Below are positions 28,846 to 63,375 of a DNA stretch of 64,000 nucleotides, one piece after another. The stretch spans positions 124,001 through 188,000 of the forward strand of contig JAIXQP010000050.1 of NCBI GenBank assembly GCA_027485675.1, written 5' to 3'. A model generated the notes under the pieces. That model made no database searches. It had not been told where the DNA came from and saw only the letters and a list, made by a program, of their open reading frames with translations. A program made the translations under genes and the position numbers. This stretch comes from Terriglobales bacterium (GTDB lineage: Bacteria > Acidobacteriota > Terriglobia > Bryobacterales > Bryobacteraceae). How positions within the stretch are numbered: the first letter of the stretch is position 1; every line of letters begins with the position of its first letter.

Positions 28846-31800
28846 ATGCCGGAAAGTACAAAGATCGATGTGAATAGTTGGCTCGAAGAAGAGCTCTTTC
28901 AGCAGTACAAGAACAACCATACGTTCGTGGACGAAAGCTGGCAAAGCCAGTTTGCCGCGGAGAAAGGAAACGGGGCCGTCGCCGCTGCGCCACCGCCCCC
29001 GCCTCCGCCGCCTCCACCCCCGCCGCCACCTCCGCCTCCGCCAGCCCCGGCGGCCACGGGCGTGACGACGACCCAGACGCAGGCTGTCGAAACGAAGCCA
29101 GCTCCGAGTAAGGACGTCGATTCCTCCGAACAGCTAGTGCCCCTGCGGGGCGCCCCGGCGCGGCTCGCCGAGAACATGACCCTGTCGCTTTCGATTCCGA
29201 CGGCGACGAGCCAGCGGTCGATTCCGGTGAAGGTGATTGACGAGAACCGGCGGATCATCAATCAGCACCGGTCTCTGTTGGGTCATTCGAAGATCTCCTA
29301 TACGCACATCATCGGCTGGGCCATTGTGAAGGCCGTGCAGGCCAATCCGGCGATGAACTGCGCCTATGTGGAGCAGGGCAAGGATCTTTTCAAGATCGTT
29401 CGCGGCCACATCAATTTGGGACTGGCGATCGATCTGCCGTCCCGCGACGGCGGCCGGGCGCTCGTGGTGCCCAACATCAAGAACGCCGGTGCGATGACGT
29501 TCTCGCAGTACCTGAAGTCCTACGACGAACTCGTGCAGCGGGGCCGCAAGGGCAAACTGACCGTGGCGGATTTCGCGGGCACGTCGATTTCGCTGACGAA
29601 CCCCGGCACGGTGGGCACCGTGGGATCGATTCCCCGGTTGATGCCGGGCCAGGGCTGCATCATTGCGACGGGCGCCATCGACTTTCCGGCCGAATATCAG
29701 GGCGTAACCGAAGAGATGCGGGCGATGCTGGGCATCGGCAAGGTGATGATGGTCACCTGCACCTACGACCACCGCATTATTCAAGGCGCTGAGAGCGGCG
29801 CGTTCCTTGGCAAACTGCAGGGTCTGCTGCAGGGCGAGGATAACTTCTACAGCGAGATCTTCCACGATCTCCGCATGCCGCATCAGCCGGTGAAGTGGGA
29901 ACCGGACCGGACGGCAGTATCGCGTCCGGCGGGCGGCTTCCGGCAGGTGGAGATTGGCAAGGAGAGCTCGGTTCTCCAACTGATCAATGCCTACCGGATG
30001 CGCGGGCATTTGATTGCGGATCTCGATCCGCTCGGCTCGGAGATCCAATACCATCCGGAACTCGACCCGGCGCATTACGGCCTGACGATTTGGGACCTGG
30101 ACCGCGAATTCGTGACGGGTTCGCTGGGCACGGCCGTGGGCGAAGGCGCGCCGCACATCGTGGCGACGCTGCGCGAACTGCTCGAAAAGATGCGGCAGAC
30201 CTACTGCGGCAAGATCGGCTGCGAGTACATGTACATCCAGTCGCCGGAGCAGAAGACGTGGCTGCAGCAGCGCATGGAACCGAAGGCGAACAATTGGCCG
30301 CTGAACGAAGGCGACCGGGTGCGGGCGCTCGAACGGGTGCTCGAGTCGGAAGGCTTTGAGCAGTTCCTCGGCAATCGGTTCGTGGGCCACAAGCGGTTCT
30401 CGCTTGAAGGCGGCGAATCGACGGTGGCGATTCTCGATGAGATCGTGGTGCGGGCGGCGGACCACGCCGTGCACGAGATCGTGATCGGGATGGCGCACCG
30501 GGGCCGGTTGAACATTTTGACGAACATCATCGGCAAGAAGCCGGAGATGATTTTCAGTGAGTTTGACGGGAACCCGTACGAGGGTTCGATGCAGGGTTCG
30601 GGCGACGTGAAGTACCACTTGGGCGCGAGCGGCGTCCGTCGGGCTCCGTCGGGCCGGGAGATCGTGGTGAGCGTGGCGCCGAATCCGTCGCACCTCGAAG
30701 CGGTGAACCCGGTGGTCGAAGGCATTGTGCGGCCGAAGCAGGATCGGTTGGGCGACGTAAAGCGCGAGCGGGTGATTCCGCTGCTGATCCACGGCGACGC
30801 CGCGTTTATCGGCCAGGGCGTGGTGGCCGAAACGCTGAACATGTCGCAGCTCGAAGGCTACAAGACCGGCGGCACCATTCACGTGGTCATCAATAATCAG
30901 ATTGGATTCACGGCGCAGCCGGAGTCCTACCGCAGTTCGTTGTACGCGACGGACGTGGCGCGGATCGTGGACGCGCCGATTTTCCATGTGAACGGCGACG
31001 ATCCGGAGGCTTGTATCCGGGTGGCGCAGTTGGCGTTCGACTTCCGGCAGGCGTTCAAGAAAGACGTTGTGATCGACATGATCTGCTACCGGCGGCATGG
31101 CCACAACGAAGGCGACGAACCGAGCTATACGCAGCCGATCATGTACCGGAAGATCCGGCAGCAGCCTTCCGTCGCGACGCTGTTCGCCGAACGGCTGGTG
31201 CGGGAGAAAGTGATCACGGCCGACGAAGTGGACCGGATGAAGAAGGCCATCACGCAGCGCCTCTCCGAAGCCCAGGCCCGCAGCCAGGCCAACGCGCAGC
31301 AGTACGAGTTCCAGGAGTTGGCGATTGTCGATGAGTCCGACGTGCGGCGCGAGATCCCGCAGACGGCCGTCGACCGTGCCATTCTCGAACGCGTGATCTA
31401 CGGTTCAACGACCTTCCCGGAGGATTTCCAGGTCCATCCGAAGCTGAAGAGCTTCATCGACAAGCGCCTGCAGATTCTCGACGGCGGGTCCGTGGATTGG
31501 GCGGGGGCCGAGGCGCTCGCGTTTGGCACCTTGGTGCTCGAAGGGACGCCCGTCCGCTTGAGCGGCCAGGATTCGGGCCGCGGCACGTTTTCGCAACGGC
31601 ATCTGGTTTTCTCGGACGCCGAGACCGGCGAGCGCTATATACCGACGCAGCATCTGGCGCCGAACCAGGCCCGGATTGAGGTGTGGGATTCGTGCTTGAG
31701 CGAATATGCCGTGATGGGTTTTGAGTTCGGCTACTCGGTGGCCGACCCGCTCTGCCTCGTGCTGTGGGAAGCGCAGTTCGGCGACTTCGCCAACGGCGCG

Positions 31801-32586
31801 CAGATCATGATCGACCAGTTCATCACCTGTTCGCAGCAGAAGTGGGGCCAGCCGAGCGGCTTGGTGCTGCTGCTGCCGCACGGGCAGGAAGGTCAGGGTC
31901 CGGAGCACTCCTCGGCGCGTATCGAACGCTTCCTGACGTTGTGCGCCGAAGACAATATCCAGGTGGTTTACCCGACCACGGCGGCGCAGTACTTCCATGT
32001 GTTGCGCCGGCAGATGCACGGCGGCGATGACCGCCGCGGGATGCGGAAGCCGCTCGTGATCTTTACTCCCAAGGGCATGCTCCGGCTGCCGCGTGCGAGT
32101 TCGGCGCTCGCCGATCTGACGACCGGTGGCTTCTGCGAGATCATCGGCGATACCGCGCTGACCGAAGCGACCCGCGTGAAGCGCGTGATCCTGACGACGG
32201 GCAAGATCCACTACGAGTTGGCTGAGGCCCGCGAGAAGCAGGGCATCAACAACATCGCGCTCATCCGTCTCGAACAGCTGTATCCGTTCCCGACGGCGGA
32301 GCTGCAGGACGTGTTGGCGCGGTACCCGGTAACGGCGGAAGTCTGCTTTGTGCAGGAAGAGCCGCGGAACATGGGCGCGTGGCGGTTTGTGCGCGAGCAG
32401 GTGCAGCCGCTGCTCGACCCGAGCCGGCGGGCGCTGCGTTACATTGGCCGGGACGAATCGGCCAGCCCGGCGCCGGGTTCGTTGAAGCGGCATAACTTCG
32501 AGCAGGCGGACCTGGTGGAGGAGGCGATGGATGCCTCGTCGAAGCCGCAGCCGCGGACTCGTTTGGTGGCCCGCAAGAAGGGATAA
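28846..32586 (+). CDS. Fused 2-oxoglutarate dehydrogenase/decarboxylase (E2 core plus E1, Kgd type)
   Basis: 1246 residues. Residues 1-45 (WLEEELFQQYKNNHTFVDESWQSQF) are the E1 N-terminal helix region seen in Kgd/SucA. A run of 18 consecutive Pro codons (residues 49-66) forms a linker. Residues about 95-340 are an E2 acyltransferase core ending TYDHRIIQGAESG with the catalytic His, but no lipoyl domain is present. From about 365 the E1 follows: VLQLINAYRMRGHLIADLDPLG, GMAHRGRLNIL, the TPP segment IHGDAAFIGQG (about 648) and LLPHGQEGQGPEHSSARIERFL. It decarboxylates 2-oxoglutarate in the TCA cycle. This single-chain form is best known from mycobacteria. Confidence 0.92.
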   Translation: MPESTKIDVNSWLEEELFQQYKNNHTFVDESWQSQFAAEKGNGAVAAAPPPPPPPPPPPPPPPPPPAPAATGVTTTQTQAVETKPAPSKDVDSSEQLVPLRGAPARLAENMTLSLSIPTATSQRSIPVKVIDENRRIINQHRSLLGHSKISYTHIIGWAIVKAVQANPAMNCAYVEQGKDLFKIVRGHINLGLAIDLPSRDGGRALVVPNIKNAGAMTFSQYLKSYDELVQRGRKGKLTVADFAGTSISLTNPGTVGTVGSIPRLMPGQGCIIATGAIDFPAEYQGVTEEMRAMLGIGKVMMVTCTYDHRIIQGAESGAFLGKLQGLLQGEDNFYSEIFHDLRMPHQPVKWEPDRTAVSRPAGGFRQVEIGKESSVLQLINAYRMRGHLIADLDPLGSEIQYHPELDPAHYGLTIWDLDREFVTGSLGTAVGEGAPHIVATLRELLEKMRQTYCGKIGCEYMYIQSPEQKTWLQQRMEPKANNWPLNEGDRVRALERVLESEGFEQFLGNRFVGHKRFSLEGGESTVAILDEIVVRAADHAVHEIVIGMAHRGRLNILTNIIGKKPEMIFSEFDGNPYEGSMQGSGDVKYHLGASGVRRAPSGREIVVSVAPNPSHLEAVNPVVEGIVRPKQDRLGDVKRERVIPLLIHGDAAFIGQGVVAETLNMSQLEGYKTGGTIHVVINNQIGFTAQPESYRSSLYATDVARIVDAPIFHVNGDDPEACIRVAQLAFDFRQAFKKDVVIDMICYRRHGHNEGDEPSYTQPIMYRKIRQQPSVATLFAERLVREKVITADEVDRMKKAITQRLSEAQARSQANAQQYEFQELAIVDESDVRREIPQTAVDRAILERVIYGSTTFPEDFQVHPKLKSFIDKRLQILDGGSVDWAGAEALAFGTLVLEGTPVRLSGQDSGRGTFSQRHLVFSDAETGERYIPTQHLAPNQARIEVWDSCLSEYAVMGFEFGYSVADPLCLVLWEAQFGDFANGAQIMIDQFITCSQQKWGQPSGLVLLLPHGQEGQGPEHSSARIERFLTLCAEDNIQVVYPTTAAQYFHVLRRQMHGGDDRRGMRKPLVIFTPKGMLRLPRASSALADLTTGGFCEIIGDTALTEATRVKRVILTTGKIHYELAEAREKQGINNIALIRLEQLYPFPTAELQDVLARYPVTAEVCFVQEEPRNMGAWRFVREQVQPLLDPSRRALRYIGRDESASPAPGSLKRHNFEQADLVEEAMDASSKPQPRTRLVARKKG

Positions 32587-32600
32587 CGGAGTTCGCTGCG

Positions 32601-32631
32601 AGTCAGCGGGGCGCCCGGCGCCTCGCTGACT
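32601..32631 (+). terminator. Hairpin after the 2-oxoglutarate dehydrogenase gene
   Basis: AGTCAGCG (32601-32608) plus GGCGCC pairs with GGCGCC and CGCTGACT (32624-32631), a nearly perfect 15-bp inverted repeat with one G-U pair, starting 15 bp after the stop codon. No T-run follows, so a Rho-independent role is uncertain. The right arm is the beginning of the first 137-bp repeat unit. Confidence 0.5.
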
Positions 32632-33432
32632 GCATGCCGAAGCGGCCTTGCGATGGATCTCCGTGGCGAGTATCGGTGCCGTGCGCTCCGTAGCCGGGAG
32701 CCGCGCGACGGATGCCGGCAGGAACGCCGTATCCTCTCGTCCGACACCTCGCTGACTGCATGCCGAAGCTCTGCCGCGAAGGCCTTGCGCTGGATCTCCG
32801 TGGCGAGTATCGGTGCTGTGTGTTCCGTCGCCGGGTGCTGCGCGACGGGTGCCTGCAGGAACGCCGTACCCTCGCGCCCCGGCGCCTCGCTGACTGCATA
32901 CCGAAGCTCTGCCGCGAAGGCCTTGCGCTGGATCTCCGGGGCGAGTATCGGTGCTGTGCGTTTCGTAGCCGGGAGCCACGCGACGGCTGCCCGCTGGAAC
33001 GCCGTACCTTCGCGCCCGGCGCCGCGCTGACTGCATGCGGAAGCTCCGCCGCGAAGGCCTTGCGCTGGACCTCCGTGGCGCACATCGGTGCCGTGAGCTC
33101 CGTGGCCGGGAGTCGCGCGACGGATGCCGGCAGGAATGCCGTACCCTCTCGTCCGACACCTCGCTCATCGTATGCCGAAGGTCTGCCGCGAAGGCCTTGC
33201 GCCGGATCTCCGGGGCGAGTATCGGTGCTGTGCGTTTCGTAGCCGGGAGCCACGCGACGGCTGCCCGCTGGAACGCCGTACCTTCGCGCCCGGCACCTCG
33301 CTGACTGCATGCCGGAGCTCTACCGCGCAGGCCTTGCGCTGGGTCTCCGTTGCGAGTATCGGTGCTGTGCGTTCCGTCGCCGGGAGCCGCGCGACGGATG
33401 CCTGCAGGAACGCCGTACCCTCGCGCCGGGCG
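32621..33432. repeat. Six tandem ~137-bp units derived from the 3' end of the TPR gene
   Basis: Unit starts are 32621, 32747, 32885, 33022, 33159 and 33296, so lengths are 126, 138, 137, 137, 137 and 137 bp; a diverged seventh copy is the real gene end from 33433. Each unit begins CCTCGCTGACTGCATGCCG, matching the gene's stop-codon region (33433-33452), and continues with sequence matching about 33528-33645, which encodes GRDGTVFMQASVVRLP to HRKTFAAKV on the minus strand. The roughly 73 bp between these two parts of the gene is deleted in every unit. The TAG stop is TCA in the units, and 137 is not a multiple of three, so no frame is kept. Nothing else is seen in this 850-bp gap. Confidence 0.92.
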
Positions 33433-33438
33433 CCTCGC

Positions 33439-35343
33439 CTACTGAATGCCGAACATCTCTTTCAACTGCATGGCGTCGCCGGCGGTCGTCGAGCCGTCGA
33501 GGGAGTTGATGCCCGCCTGGGAAAGGTCCACTTTTGCCGCAAAAGTCTTGCGGTGGATCTCCTTGGCCAGCATCCGCGCCGTGAGCTTCATATCCGGGAG
33601 CCGCACGACCGATGCCTGCATGAACACCGTACCGTCGCGCCCGGACAGGCGGGCGGCCAGCCGGTTGCCGGCGGTGAAGACCGAGAGCGTGAAGCCGCGG
33701 CCGCGGTGGAAGCGGGGGCTCTTTTCGAGGAACGTCACCGTCTGCTTGGCCGCCTCACTCGCGTCCGGGGAGAAGGTGACGGGGACCGTCAGATCCAGGG
33801 TACGGAATAGGCCCGGGTTTCGTTCGAGGGCGTTCCGGTAGGCCGTCACCGAGGCTTCGCTCTGCCCAAGCCGCTCGTTGGCGTAGCCGATCAGGACCTC
33901 AACCCGGGTGCGGAGCAGGACCTCTTCCTGCGGCAGGGCGTTGCGGGCGGCCGTCAAGGCCGTGAGACCCTTGGCGTAGGCTCCTTGCGAGACCAAAGTC
34001 TCCCCGAGCGCTCCCTGCAGATACGGCTTTTCGCGCACGGCGTTCTTACCCGTTCGGGCCAGCAGCTTCTGGAGCTCCACTTCGGCAAGGCCGTCCCCGA
34101 CCGGAATGTGCAGGCCGGGCCGCATCCATTCGACGATGGGCGAATCCGGAGCGTAGGGACGGAGGATCCAGTTGAGACGGCTTTGAGGGACCAGCAGCGA
34201 GTTCAGGCGGCTGTTGGCTTCCCACAGCTCGCGCTCCACTTTGAGACGCTCCCAGAGCGCCAGCCCCCATTCGGGGATGGTGTTCCAGCTCATCTCTTCG
34301 CGGATCTGCTCCCGTTGCAGTTGGAGCGCCTCGCGATAGAGATAGAGCAGGCCGATCTCCGCCTGTTCGGCGTTGCCGCTGGTGACGCCGCGGCGGTCCG
34401 GCTTATTGCGGATCTTGCGCAGAATATTCAGCGCCTCGGTGTTGTAGCCGGCGGCCATCAGGATGATCGCCGTGGCCTGTTGGCCGTCGTTCCAGCGCTG
34501 TTGCTCGAGCGTGGGGTCGCTGCGCTTGTCCCAGGAGTGCATGTTGCGGAGGGCGCCCAACGCTTCGGCCAGCCGGCCTTGGCCGACGTAGAGAATAGCG
34601 AGTGACATCCACGGATTGGAGTTGCTCGACGGATGGAAATGCTTGGTCGCGTAAAGGGTATCGGCTTCGGCCTCCTGGAAACGGAGGAGTACGGTGGCGA
34701 CCTCGGCGCGATTGCGGACTAGCGTCGCAATGTTGACGCGATCACGCTCGGTGAGTTCGCTCTTGAGGATGGTGAACCAGCGGAACGCCTCTTCGTATTT
34801 GCCGAGGGTCATCTCAATGGAACCCAGGGTGTTCAGCGCGCCGCGGCGGACGTCGGGGTCCTTCGACTGCACATAATGGCGCATGAGCTTAAGCGCCTCT
34901 TCATGGCGGCCCAGTTTCATGAGCGCCCAGCCGGTACGCTCGCCCATGTCGATGCGGAAGAGTTCGTTGAACTCGGCGACGATCTTGAGCTGCTCGTCGT
35001 GCTTTTCGGTGAGTCCGGCGACCAGGAGCATTTCAAACAGCACGTTCGAGTGCAGCTCCGAGCGGTTGGCGTCGAAGCCGGTGAGCTCCTCTCGTTCGAC
35101 CAGGCTGCGCGCGCGGCCCAGATAGTAGCGGGCGAGCGGCAGGTTGGCCTCGCCGCGGTGCATGGCCACCCCCATCAGGTAGTTGCCCATGATGGAGTTC
35201 TTGTTCTCGCGGAGCGTCTGTTCGGCGATTTCGCGGATGCGGACGAAGCGCCCGCGGTCAATGAGATTGCGCGCGGAGGCCAGGTCGAGATCCTCGGCCA
35301 GAAGGGTGGCGAAGCTGAGGAGGAGCAGGACCAGGAGGCGCAT
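33439..35343 (-). CDS. Secreted tetratricopeptide-repeat protein
   Basis: 634 residues with a signal peptide (MRLLVLLLLSFATLLA). The rest is mainly helical hairpins of TPR type, for example ALMKLGRHEEALKLMRHYV, ALNTLGSIEMTLGKYEEAFRWFTIL, SLAILYVGQGRLAEALGALRNM and GETLVSQGAYAKGLTALTAARNAL, ending in a beta-rich domain (about 550-634). The ATG at 35343 overlaps the MoxR stop (TGATG) and gives the signal peptide; a longer upstream reading is rejected. It probably scaffolds the MoxR/DUF58/transglutaminase complex in the periplasm. Partial copies of its last codons form the tandem array just downstream. Confidence 0.85.
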   Translation of the reverse strand: MRLLVLLLLSFATLLAEDLDLASARNLIDRGRFVRIREIAEQTLRENKNSIMGNYLMGVAMHRGEANLPLARYYLGRARSLVEREELTGFDANRSELHSNVLFEMLLVAGLTEKHDEQLKIVAEFNELFRIDMGERTGWALMKLGRHEEALKLMRHYVQSKDPDVRRGALNTLGSIEMTLGKYEEAFRWFTILKSELTERDRVNIATLVRNRAEVATVLLRFQEAEADTLYATKHFHPSSNSNPWMSLAILYVGQGRLAEALGALRNMHSWDKRSDPTLEQQRWNDGQQATAIILMAAGYNTEALNILRKIRNKPDRRGVTSGNAEQAEIGLLYLYREALQLQREQIREEMSWNTIPEWGLALWERLKVERELWEANSRLNSLLVPQSRLNWILRPYAPDSPIVEWMRPGLHIPVGDGLAEVELQKLLARTGKNAVREKPYLQGALGETLVSQGAYAKGLTALTAARNALPQEEVLLRTRVEVLIGYANERLGQSEASVTAYRNALERNPGLFRTLDLTVPVTFSPDASEAAKQTVTFLEKSPRFHRGRGFTLSVFTAGNRLAARLSGRDGTVFMQASVVRLPDMKLTARMLAKEIHRKTFAAKVDLSQAGINSLDGSTTAGDAMQLKEMFGIQ

Positions 35344-61474: not shown

Positions 61475-61566
61475 TCGAACGCTCCTATTCACTCTTCATC
61501 CCGGTTTTCTCCCACTCTACTGCTGCAAAATTGTAGGAGGCCGATTGCCTGTGGTACAACTCAAAC

Positions 61567-61827
61567 ATGGCATACGTAATCGCTGAACCCTGTGTGGGCA
61601 CCAAGGACACGGCTTGTGTGGATGCTTGCCCAGTAGACTGCATTCATCCGAAAAAGGACGATGCACGGTTTGAAGAGGTCGAGATCTTGAACATCGACCC
61701 CGTCGAGTGTATCGACTGTGGCGCCTGCGTCCCTGTATGCCCCGTTTCCGCGATCTTCGCCCTCGACGATCTGCCCGAAAAGTGGAACGACTTCACCCAG
61801 AAGAACGCCGCTTACTTCGGCCGCTAG
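61567..61827 (+). CDS. 7Fe-type (3Fe-4S/4Fe-4S) ferredoxin
   Basis: 86 residues. The N-terminal EPCVGTKDTACVDACPVDCIHP has the C-x7-C-x3-C pattern of 7Fe ferredoxins, followed by the second cluster CIDCGACVPVCPVSAI. It carries low-potential electrons. The last nine bases and stop are repeated in each downstream 230-bp unit. A -10-like TACAAC lies 6 bp before the ATG and no ribosome site is at normal distance. Confidence 0.93.
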   Translation: MAYVIAEPCVGTKDTACVDACPVDCIHPKKDDARFEEVEILNIDPVECIDCGACVPVCPVSAIFALDDLPEKWNDFTQKNAAYFGR

Positions 61828-61868
61828 TCGCGCCCCTCTGCTTTCTCGAAAGCCGGATCGGTCGAAGC

Positions 61869-62046
61869 CTAAACCGCTTCGGCGATCCGGCTTCCCATTT
61901 CCGTTCTCGTGAGCGTTCCGCCCATGTCCACGGTGCGCGCCGTCGGGTCGGCAAAAACCGTACTCACCGCGCGGCGAATCATCTCCGCTCCGCGCCGGGT
62001 CTCCGTATGGTCCAGCCAATCGAGCAGCAGGGCCGCAGAGAGAATC
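61869..62046 (-). pseudogene. IPMDH-like 3' fragment, copy 1
   Basis: Minus-strand frame encodes about 59 codons equal to the last residues of the 62329-63375 gene ([27 protein letters not shown]-type reading to SRIAEAV and TAG) with a few substitutions. It lacks the rest of the gene and any start signal. Confidence 0.85.
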
Positions 62047-62098
62047 TCGGCCGCTAGTAGCTACCTTTTGCTTTCTCGAAAGCCGGATCTGTCGAAGC

Positions 62099-62276
62099 CT
62101 AAACCGCTTCGGCGATCCGGCTTCCCATTTCCGTTGTCGTGAGCGCTCCGCCCATGTCCACGGTGCGCGCCGTCGGGTCGCCAAAAACCGTACTCACCGC
62201 GCGGCGAATCATCTCCGCCCCGCGCCGGGTCTCCGGATGGTCCAGCCAGTCGAGCAGCAGGGCCGCAGAGAGAATC
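62099..62276 (-). pseudogene. IPMDH-like 3' fragment, copy 2
   Basis: Same fragment as copy 1, 230 bp to the right and intermediate in position between it and the gene. The reading frame and TAG stop are kept; a change gives VFGDPTAR instead of VFADPTAR. Confidence 0.85.
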
Positions 62277-62328
62277 TCGGCCGCTAGTCTCTACCCGTTG
62301 CTTTCTCGAAAGCCGGATCTGTCGAAGC

Positions 62329-63375
62329 CTATACCGCTTCGGCGATCCGGCTTCCCATTTCCGTCGTCGTGAGCGCTCCGCCCATGTCCACGGTTCGCGC
62401 CGTCGGGTCGGCAAAAACCGTACTCACCGCGCGGCGAATCATCTCCGCCCCGCGCCGGGTCTCCGGATGGTCCAGCCAGTCAAGCATCAGGGCCACGGAC
62501 AGAATCGTGGCCACGGGGTTCGCGATTCCCTTTCCGGCGATGTCCGGCGCCGAGCCATGGGACGGCTGGAACACCGCATGCGTATCGCCAATGTCGGCCG
62601 ACGGCGCCATGCCCATGCCGCCCACTAAAGCCGCCGCCAGATCCGAGAGAATATCGCCGAACATATTCTCGGTCACCAGAACGTCGAAGCTCTCCGGCCG
62701 CTGCACCAGATAGAGCGCGCAGGCATCCACGTAGACGCGCTCAGTGGCAATATCGGGAAACTCGGCGGCGATCTGGTCGAAAATGCTCCGGAAATAGGCC
62801 ATCGACGGCAAGACGTTGGCCTTATCCACCAGCGTGACCTTCTTCCGCCGCCCCGCGGCAAGGTGAAACGCCGACCGGATCACCCGCTCCGCGCCGCTGC
62901 GGGTAATCCGCAACTCATCGGTCACCTGGTCCGCCTGCAGCGAGTACGGAACCAGACGCGATACGAACAGTCCCTCGGTGGATTCCCGGACCAGCGCAAA
63001 GTCGATCGCCGTCTTGCCCTTCAACGGAGTATCGTTCGGATGGTAGAGCACAATCGGCCGCAGGCCGCAGTACAGGCCGAGTTTTTCGCGGATATCGATC
63101 TGCGGCGCCATCTCCCGCCCATCCGCCCAGCGGATGTTCGGCAGGCCCATCGCGCCCAGGAGAATCGTCGAATACTTGGCGATCTCCGTAAACGTGGCCT
63201 CCGGCAAAGGGTCCCCGCTGCGCAGATACTCGCCGGCCCCCACGAGAAACTCGGCGGTCGAAAACGTCACCCCTTCCAGCTTCGCTTCCGCGGCCCGGAG
63301 GACCTTCAAACCCTCGGCTACGACATCCGGACCAATCCCATCACCCGGCAGCACCGCGATTGCAAAATTCGGCAT
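62329..63375 (-). CDS. Isopropylmalate/isocitrate-dehydrogenase-family enzyme
   Basis: 348 residues. [20 protein letters not shown] opens the fold, [11 protein letters not shown] and [14 protein letters not shown] bind substrate, [12 protein letters not shown] and [31 protein letters not shown]-like ([15 protein letters not shown]) hold metal and NAD. [16 protein letters not shown] replaces the usual [13 protein letters not shown] with [12 protein letters not shown], so a 3-isopropylmalate, tartrate or homoisocitrate role is not decided. No leucine genes are adjacent. The last 178 bp of the gene are duplicated twice downstream of its stop. Confidence 0.88.
   Translation of the reverse strand: [348 protein letters not shown]

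Follow-up and report, generated by a model that had tools for sequence, protein, structure and literature searches.

Bacterial minisatellites and variable-number tandem repeats (VNTRs), which are attributed to slippage and unequal exchange, are among the nearest described relatives of the array presented here, with which they share head-to-tail units (ca. 137 bp in this case), a patchwork of similarity among units and short repeats at the presumed breakpoints. What differs is that here the source of the unit can be named, i.e., the 3' end of the neighbouring gene, and that the locus is known here from one genome per species. The tandem repeats of Borgs also include independently arising arrays, but their units are perfect and A-enriched in the available part of that report (PMC9879509), whereas the units described here differ from one another by 8-22% over their length and have a G+C content of 70%. 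According to the accessible portion of the source (PMC1525189), REP palindromes are frequent between convergent genes, where they can insert without damage to a gene or a regulatory signal. REPs are dispersed; in contrast, the array unit sits at one place in its own 6.59-Mb genome, no other copy being found with 40 of 42 candidate places scored, and a REP or other dispersed repeat family was rejected on this ground. The locus also compares well with microhomology-type partial tandem gene duplications: its units match one adjacent gene end in direct orientation, of the seven relatives read that have this gene order, six carry no copies in the gap (39-46 nt long in four of them), and short direct repeats (CCGGGCGC and AAAG) lie at the inferred ends.

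The array is of an ordinary kind: part of a gene was duplicated in tandem and expanded into a minisatellite, and its history is unusually easy to read. Since the locus retains traces of each inferred step (copy-free gaps in relatives, breakpoint repeats, a shared deletion, a matched hairpin change and patchwork exchange), it provides a clear worked example of a bacterial minisatellite born from a gene end. What is new lies at the genomic scale, in that gene-tail copies appear to be in excess at the convergent junctions of the family, and if this excess holds in whole genomes one could test directly whether local duplication rates are raised by convergent transcription or 3' hairpins. Among the literature matches listed, no paper describes gene-tail arrays at bacterial convergent junctions, which is weak evidence of novelty as most subscription journals lay outside the scope of the search.

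Anatomy of the array and its parental gene

The window, i.e., the whole stretch of 64,000 nucleotides that was analysed, spans positions 124001-188000 of contig 9 of a draft genome (hereafter G000), and two of its genes face each other across the array (Table 1). The 2-oxoglutarate dehydrogenase-type protein is 1246 aa long, carries a long proline run near its N-terminus and presumably resembles the actinobacterial Kgd fusions. The facing gene, which encodes a TPR protein, had matches in 18 of the 61 genomes searched (its own included), all of them among the 19 genomes of the genus, and the eight named records retrieved with the TPR protein are from metagenome-assembled Acidobacteria, including Bryobacteraceae and Candidatus Sulfopaludibacter. 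Over its full length, the protein is 95% identical to those of the two nearest relatives.

Tandem Repeats Finder reported the array at 32644-33453 (period 137, 5.9 copies, 84% matches, score 1163), and a repeat-family search recovered a single 110-nt family made up of six array copies and a block of the TPR gene, in which identity to the reference copy is 81-99% for the other array copies and 78% for the gene. With the TPR tail as query, blastn matched all six units (77-80% identity, E 1e-22 to 6e-20). Each unit continues after the parental block with a short piece resembling the stop-codon region, and an internal stretch is absent from all six, measuring 72 nt if counted between the AAAG repeats; the difference in period (214 minus 137) puts it at about 77 nt. 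Compared with the other units, the outermost one falls short by 11-12 nt. The first-pass annotation had described six units of 126-138 bp at 32621-33432, each joining the stop-codon region to a block at about 33528-33645 of the TPR gene and lacking ca. 73 bp in between. Alignment bore out the number of units, their sizes (126, 138 and four times 137 bp), their homology to the TPR tail in direct orientation and the shared loss, and moved the limits to 32618-33429.

Similarity among the units does not follow their order. Units 3 and 5 (32910-33019 and 33184-33293) are 99% alike over 110 nt, unit 4 is 81% like unit 3, and a tree of the units grouped 3 with 5 (0.99), 1 with 4 (0.85) and 2 with 6 (0.76), a pattern that looks like patchwork exchange rather than the doubling of one block.

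Table 1 Features of the two arrays and their surroundings, in coordinates of the window
Feature	Position	Strand	Basis or remarks
2-oxoglutarate dehydrogenase-type gene (acyltransferase and E1 fused), convergent neighbour	28846-32586	+	ORF; Pfam 2-oxoacid_dh, E1_dh, Transket_pyr, OxoGdeHyase_C
Hairpin GTCAGCG-a-GGCGCC-g-GGCGCC-c-CGCTGAC (29-nt inverted repeat) next to dehydrogenase stop	32602-32630	-	Fold and letters
CCGGGCGC in hairpin apex beside dehydrogenase stop, inferred other end of founding duplication	32611-32618	-	Sequence
Array of six head-to-tail units derived from TPR tail	32618-33429	-	Tandem Repeats Finder, repeat-family search, blastn, alignment
Unit 1	32618-32743	-	126 bp, outermost
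Unit 2	32744-32881	-	138 bp
Unit 3	32882-33018	-	137 bp
Unit 4	33019-33155	-	137 bp; start set by register, pattern match at 33020
Unit 5	33156-33292	-	137 bp
Unit 6	33293-33429	-	137 bp; next register start 33430
TPR protein gene (634 aa), parent of array units	33439-35343	-	Translation; Pfam TPR families; stop TAG 33439-33441
AAAG, inferred other end of internal deletion, 72 nt apart	33459-33462	-	Sequence
AAAG, inferred end of shared internal deletion	33531-33534	-	Sequence
Parental block in TPR gene, present in all units (about 100-110 nt matched per unit)	33535-33644	-	Repeat family, blastn
CCGGGCGC (8 nt) in TPR gene, inferred end of founding duplication	33637-33644	-	Sequence
Ferredoxin-type gene (86 aa), convergent	61567-61827	+	Pfam Fer4 families
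Second array, 230 bp x 3, 94% matches	61817-62506	-	Tandem Repeats Finder; source comparison; Pfam

Relatives, breakpoints and a proposed order of events

The whole gap between the TPR and dehydrogenase genes was read in seven relatives, with lengths taken between the last aligned codons; the comparison leaves out G011, whose contig ends too soon, and nine more distant relatives with no dehydrogenase end in the flanks. The gap is 46 nt long in G017 and 39-42 nt in G015, G009 and G006, and TPR copies were detected neither in these four nor in G001 and G012, i.e., the array is without a counterpart in six of the seven. No TPR-tail copies were seen in the two relatives that are closest, at 95% protein identity. 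Enlarged gaps without a detected TPR copy are seen in G012 (426 nt, L009 3955-4380) and G001 (151 nt, L002 4015-4165). The seventh relative, G016, has a gap of 350 nt (L004 7855-8201) with degenerate TPR-tail copies of its own, one still ending in the TPR stop.

A tree based on the shared block unites all six units in a single clade (1.00), the sister of which is the TPR gene of their own genome (0.94); a tree that included the better G016 copy left the position of that copy without resolution. Four of the five bases private to the G000 gene among eight TPR genes are common to the unit consensus, and as G001 (3/6) and G016 (1/6) also share private bases with it, single sites are noisy. The copies of G016 retain the last coding part that is absent from the units of G000, and it is on structure and the unit tree that their likely independence from the array rests. 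Because six relatives have gaps without copies, the unit clade is sister to its own gene and bases are shared with it, we conclude that one founder unit most probably arose on the lineage of G000. The idea that a single shortened copy was made first and amplified later is supported by the one clade of units and by their single shared internal deletion, the parental ends of which carry the AAAG direct repeat.

The repeats at the breakpoints suggest a mechanism, read from the end product, in which the CCGGGCGC pair would mark the founding duplication and the AAAG pair the deletion. CCGGGCGC is present also at two unit boundaries, and the 8-nt repeat is GC-rich and may be partly coincidental. One copy lies in the hairpin at the far end of the array, the fold of which (32595-32640) reaches -29 kcal/mol with a z of -3.5, and the gene-side array boundary has -6.2 kcal/mol and a z of +1.3; only this hairpin and the G017 spacer (z -2.7) stood out among the pieces folded. 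A scan for T-tailed terminators found none and the far-end hairpin has no T run, so it may be called terminator-like by position and fold only.

At the position of the gene's TAG stop codon, TCA is found in five of the six units and TGA in the one at 33156, a change that the first-pass annotation had given simply as TCA. The TCA form, GTCAGCG, pairs perfectly with CGCTGAC, which the gene's GTAGGCG would not, and G017 has at the same site a perfect stem of different letters (GTAAGCG/CGCTTAC). Stem repairs of this sort are made by template switching at quasi-palindromes, by which an imperfect inverted repeat becomes more perfect (PMC7202029, in the part of the article available). The likeness to the TCA change is evident, but here the event is read from its end product, and the change from TAG to TCA could equally be due to template switching or to compensatory substitution.

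We consider it very likely that the array consists of non-coding DNA in decay, the remnant of a small tandem duplication at the convergent junction. Such a history would begin with ca. 210 nt of TPR 3' end and spacer being tandemly duplicated between the two 8-nt repeats by slippage or template switching, in the lineage of G000 and after its split from the nearest sampled relatives. The copy adjacent to the hairpin would then have lost about 72-77 nt near the two AAAG repeats, and its stop position would have become TCA, making the hairpin stem perfect (by quasi-palindrome template switching or a compensatory change). This shortened founder would have grown into six units by unequal exchange, followed by patchwork exchange among the units. 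Both genes have stayed whole, since each keeps one intact copy when a duplication spans two facing 3' ends. As the gene-side hairpin would have been lost and the surviving one lies at the far end, the TPR mRNA would today be expected to carry a 3' UTR of roughly 0.8 kb.

Coding or RNA role and competing explanations

A translated repeat extension was rejected, given that the TPR stop is intact and the unit length of 137 is not a multiple of three, in keeping with the initial view that the array is no simple gene extension. Frames, stops, codon positions and decay simulations gave no convincing sign of coding either, their yield being a slight shortage of stops on both strands and a low number of changes at codon position 1, and a coding function was set aside. 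Differences from the unit consensus amount to 14/210, 19/210 and 22/216 at parental codon positions 1, 2 and 3, and those from the parent gene to 26/208, 55/207 and 65/213, so that changes at position 2 nearly equal those at position 3, which speaks against coding constraint; in the TPR genes of the five relatives counted most changes are at position 3 (e.g., 1, 3 and 16 in G001). The low count at position 1 does not fit neutral decay as neatly. Stops are rarer than in Markov shuffles, both in the TPR sense (3 vs 12.2, P 0.0015) and on the other strand (9 vs 19.0, P 0.0075), and their scarcity on both strands looks compositional. The unit consensus is stop-free on the TPR-sense strand, and in neutral-decay simulations that start from it 5.5-6.6 stops are expected where 2 are seen (P 0.04-0.09), with 15-17 expected and 9 seen on the other strand. 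This residue is not fully absorbed by the neutral reading and leaves room for weak selection. A structured RNA was rejected as well: two unit bodies fold in the ordinary way compared with shuffles (z +0.2 and +0.3), and Rfam has no match to the array up to E 0.1. A promoter scan found nothing. Judged from its letters, the array is probably decaying non-coding DNA that makes up a probable long TPR 3' UTR, and probably it is harmless debris.

That the array is instead a selected regulatory 3' UTR, or an insulator between the two genes, would agree with its position in the likely TPR 3' UTR, with the far-end stem being perfect though its letters differ from those of G017, and with the somewhat scarce stops; we regard this as improbable, however, in view of the ordinary folding, the empty Rfam search, the absence of such an array from six of the seven relatives read and differences of up to 22% among its units. 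Silent-cassette variation systems, e.g., pilS and vls, offer another comparison, in which the units would recombine into the TPR gene and vary its C-terminus. Truncated homologous copies do lie directly downstream of an intact gene, and the four bases found only in the gene and the unit consensus could in principle be traces of conversion, although common descent explains them. Yet the TPR protein is nearly the same along its whole length in the two nearest relatives, and the units retain little of the last coding part and no longer keep the frame, making such a role extremely unlikely. An artefact of assembly might be suspected in a metagenome-assembled draft genome of 54 contigs, but errors of assembly tend to merge near-identical copies, not to create divergent ones. 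The units differ enough from one another (8-22%) that they should anchor separately, and the array lies in the interior of a 259,620-base contig, so we hold this to be very unlikely. Decaying non-coding DNA from a junction duplication is the explanation that we carry forward.

Gene-end copies in convergent gaps

A second array in the window (Table 1) appears similar in anatomy to the one derived from the TPR tail. It derives from an isopropylmalate dehydrogenase-type gene (Pfam Iso_dh), joining the 3' end of that gene to the spacer that reaches the stop of the ferredoxin-type gene, the spacer ends being possibly off by a few bases, and its extra copies retain the dehydrogenase stop codon. By eye, the joint shows a repeat of only about 3 nt, and the tail of the isopropylmalate dehydrogenase-type gene is single in the six relatives compared. 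The hairpin of the copy on the ferredoxin side folds at -24.1 kcal/mol (z -2.9), and the gene-side piece at -14 (z -0.7).

Gene-end copies were surveyed in 1.131 Mb of G000, window included, by comparing all gaps between called genes that measured 60 nt or more to the adjacent gene ends; the stretches were picked by contig and are non-random (two scraps of less than 5 kb were left out), genes were called by a home-made codon-usage caller, and the sample is small and length-biased. Of the 267 gaps compared, 11 carry a copy of an adjacent gene end, and a control with other gene ends gave 0 matches in 534 gaps. The caller missed the 86-aa ferredoxin-type gene, so that the gap 61475-62328, called tandem, was reassigned to convergent by hand post hoc. 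After reassignment, copies are present in 6/32 convergent vs 5/235 other gaps (Fisher p 0.0006, also with 5/236), without it in 5/31 vs 6/236 (p 0.004), and with the two arrays of the window removed in 4/30 convergent gaps (p 0.011). Counted per gene pair the numbers are 6/130 convergent vs 5/710 other (p 0.003), and per base pair six of the eleven copy-bearing gaps are convergent against a convergent share of 14.7% (p 0.002).

For the samples of four genomes of the family taken together (G000, G016, G017 and G025), copies occur in 9/62 convergent vs 6/451 other gaps (Fisher p 9e-6), in 7/60 convergent gaps without the two arrays of the window (p 2e-4), and in 7/62 vs 1/452 if only copies starting less than 120 nt from the stop are counted, a restriction made post hoc. 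Among convergent gaps, G016 has copies in 2/10 (one weak and non-terminal) and G025 in 1/13, and none were found in G017 (0/7), the order-level relative G040 (0/17) or 200 kb of E. coli K-12 (0/14). Controls with other gene ends gave one match in 132 gaps of G016 and none in G017, G025, G040 and E. coli; at the eight TPR loci of relatives, which are mutually homologous, they gave 4 in 24. Some matches are non-terminal (C7 96633, 66%, 228 nt inside the gene; C9 14342, more than 500 nt inside; and one of 49 nt in C6 of G016), and three matches in G000 and one in G016, two of these weak, are copies of 5' ends. Two G000 gaps, at C9 34588-35132 and C7 149792-150023 (stretch coordinates), hold copies of the 3' ends of both neighbours, which is the pattern expected from a tandem duplication spanning the junction; the genes flanking the former have no Pfam match. 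Gene-end copying may be unusually common in the convergent gaps of the Bryobacteraceae-family genomes sampled.

One could go further and postulate that convergent junctions are mutational hot spots in this family, where 3'-end hairpins, colliding RNA polymerases or both stall replication and lead to microhomology tandem duplications, and that some duplicated gene tails then amplify into arrays and become new long 3' UTRs. We offer the two parts jointly and tentatively, as a possibility about which we remain doubtful. The counts from the four genomes and the clean control in G000 point this way, as do the tail copies of G016 at the same TPR/dehydrogenase junction and the inferred breakpoint inside the hairpin. 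However, a duplication across facing 3' ends damages neither gene and duplicates no promoter, and for this reason better survival is to be expected; survivorship alone predicts an excess in the same direction, an argument that matches the one for REP insertion in the available part of PMC1525189. Moreover, duplication itself lengthens a gap and so helps it past the 60-nt limit, the class of one gap was changed by hand, and G017 showed no copies. A hot spot would add a cause to the preferred explanation, i.e., decaying DNA from a small duplication, and excludes nothing in it.

Intergenic arrays were also counted with Tandem Repeats Finder at a period of at least 30. None were seen in the samples of G017, G016 and G040, five in G000 (two called convergent, one divergent and two tandem, including that at the ferredoxin-type gene), three in G025, two of them convergent and not derived from gene ends, and one, convergent, in E. 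coli. The two in convergent gaps of G025, at L172 107459-107633 (91 bp x 1.9) and L176 180324-180929 (92 bp x 6.6), have no match to a neighbouring gene end, and the E. coli K-12 array, 98 bp x 2.9 in the fre/fadA gap (L190 27320-27609), has no adjacent gene-end match. Contig 7 of G000 also carries, at 96425-116632 (L133-L134), an ORF of ca. 20 kb on the + strand that is followed by a convergent cytochrome P450 gene.
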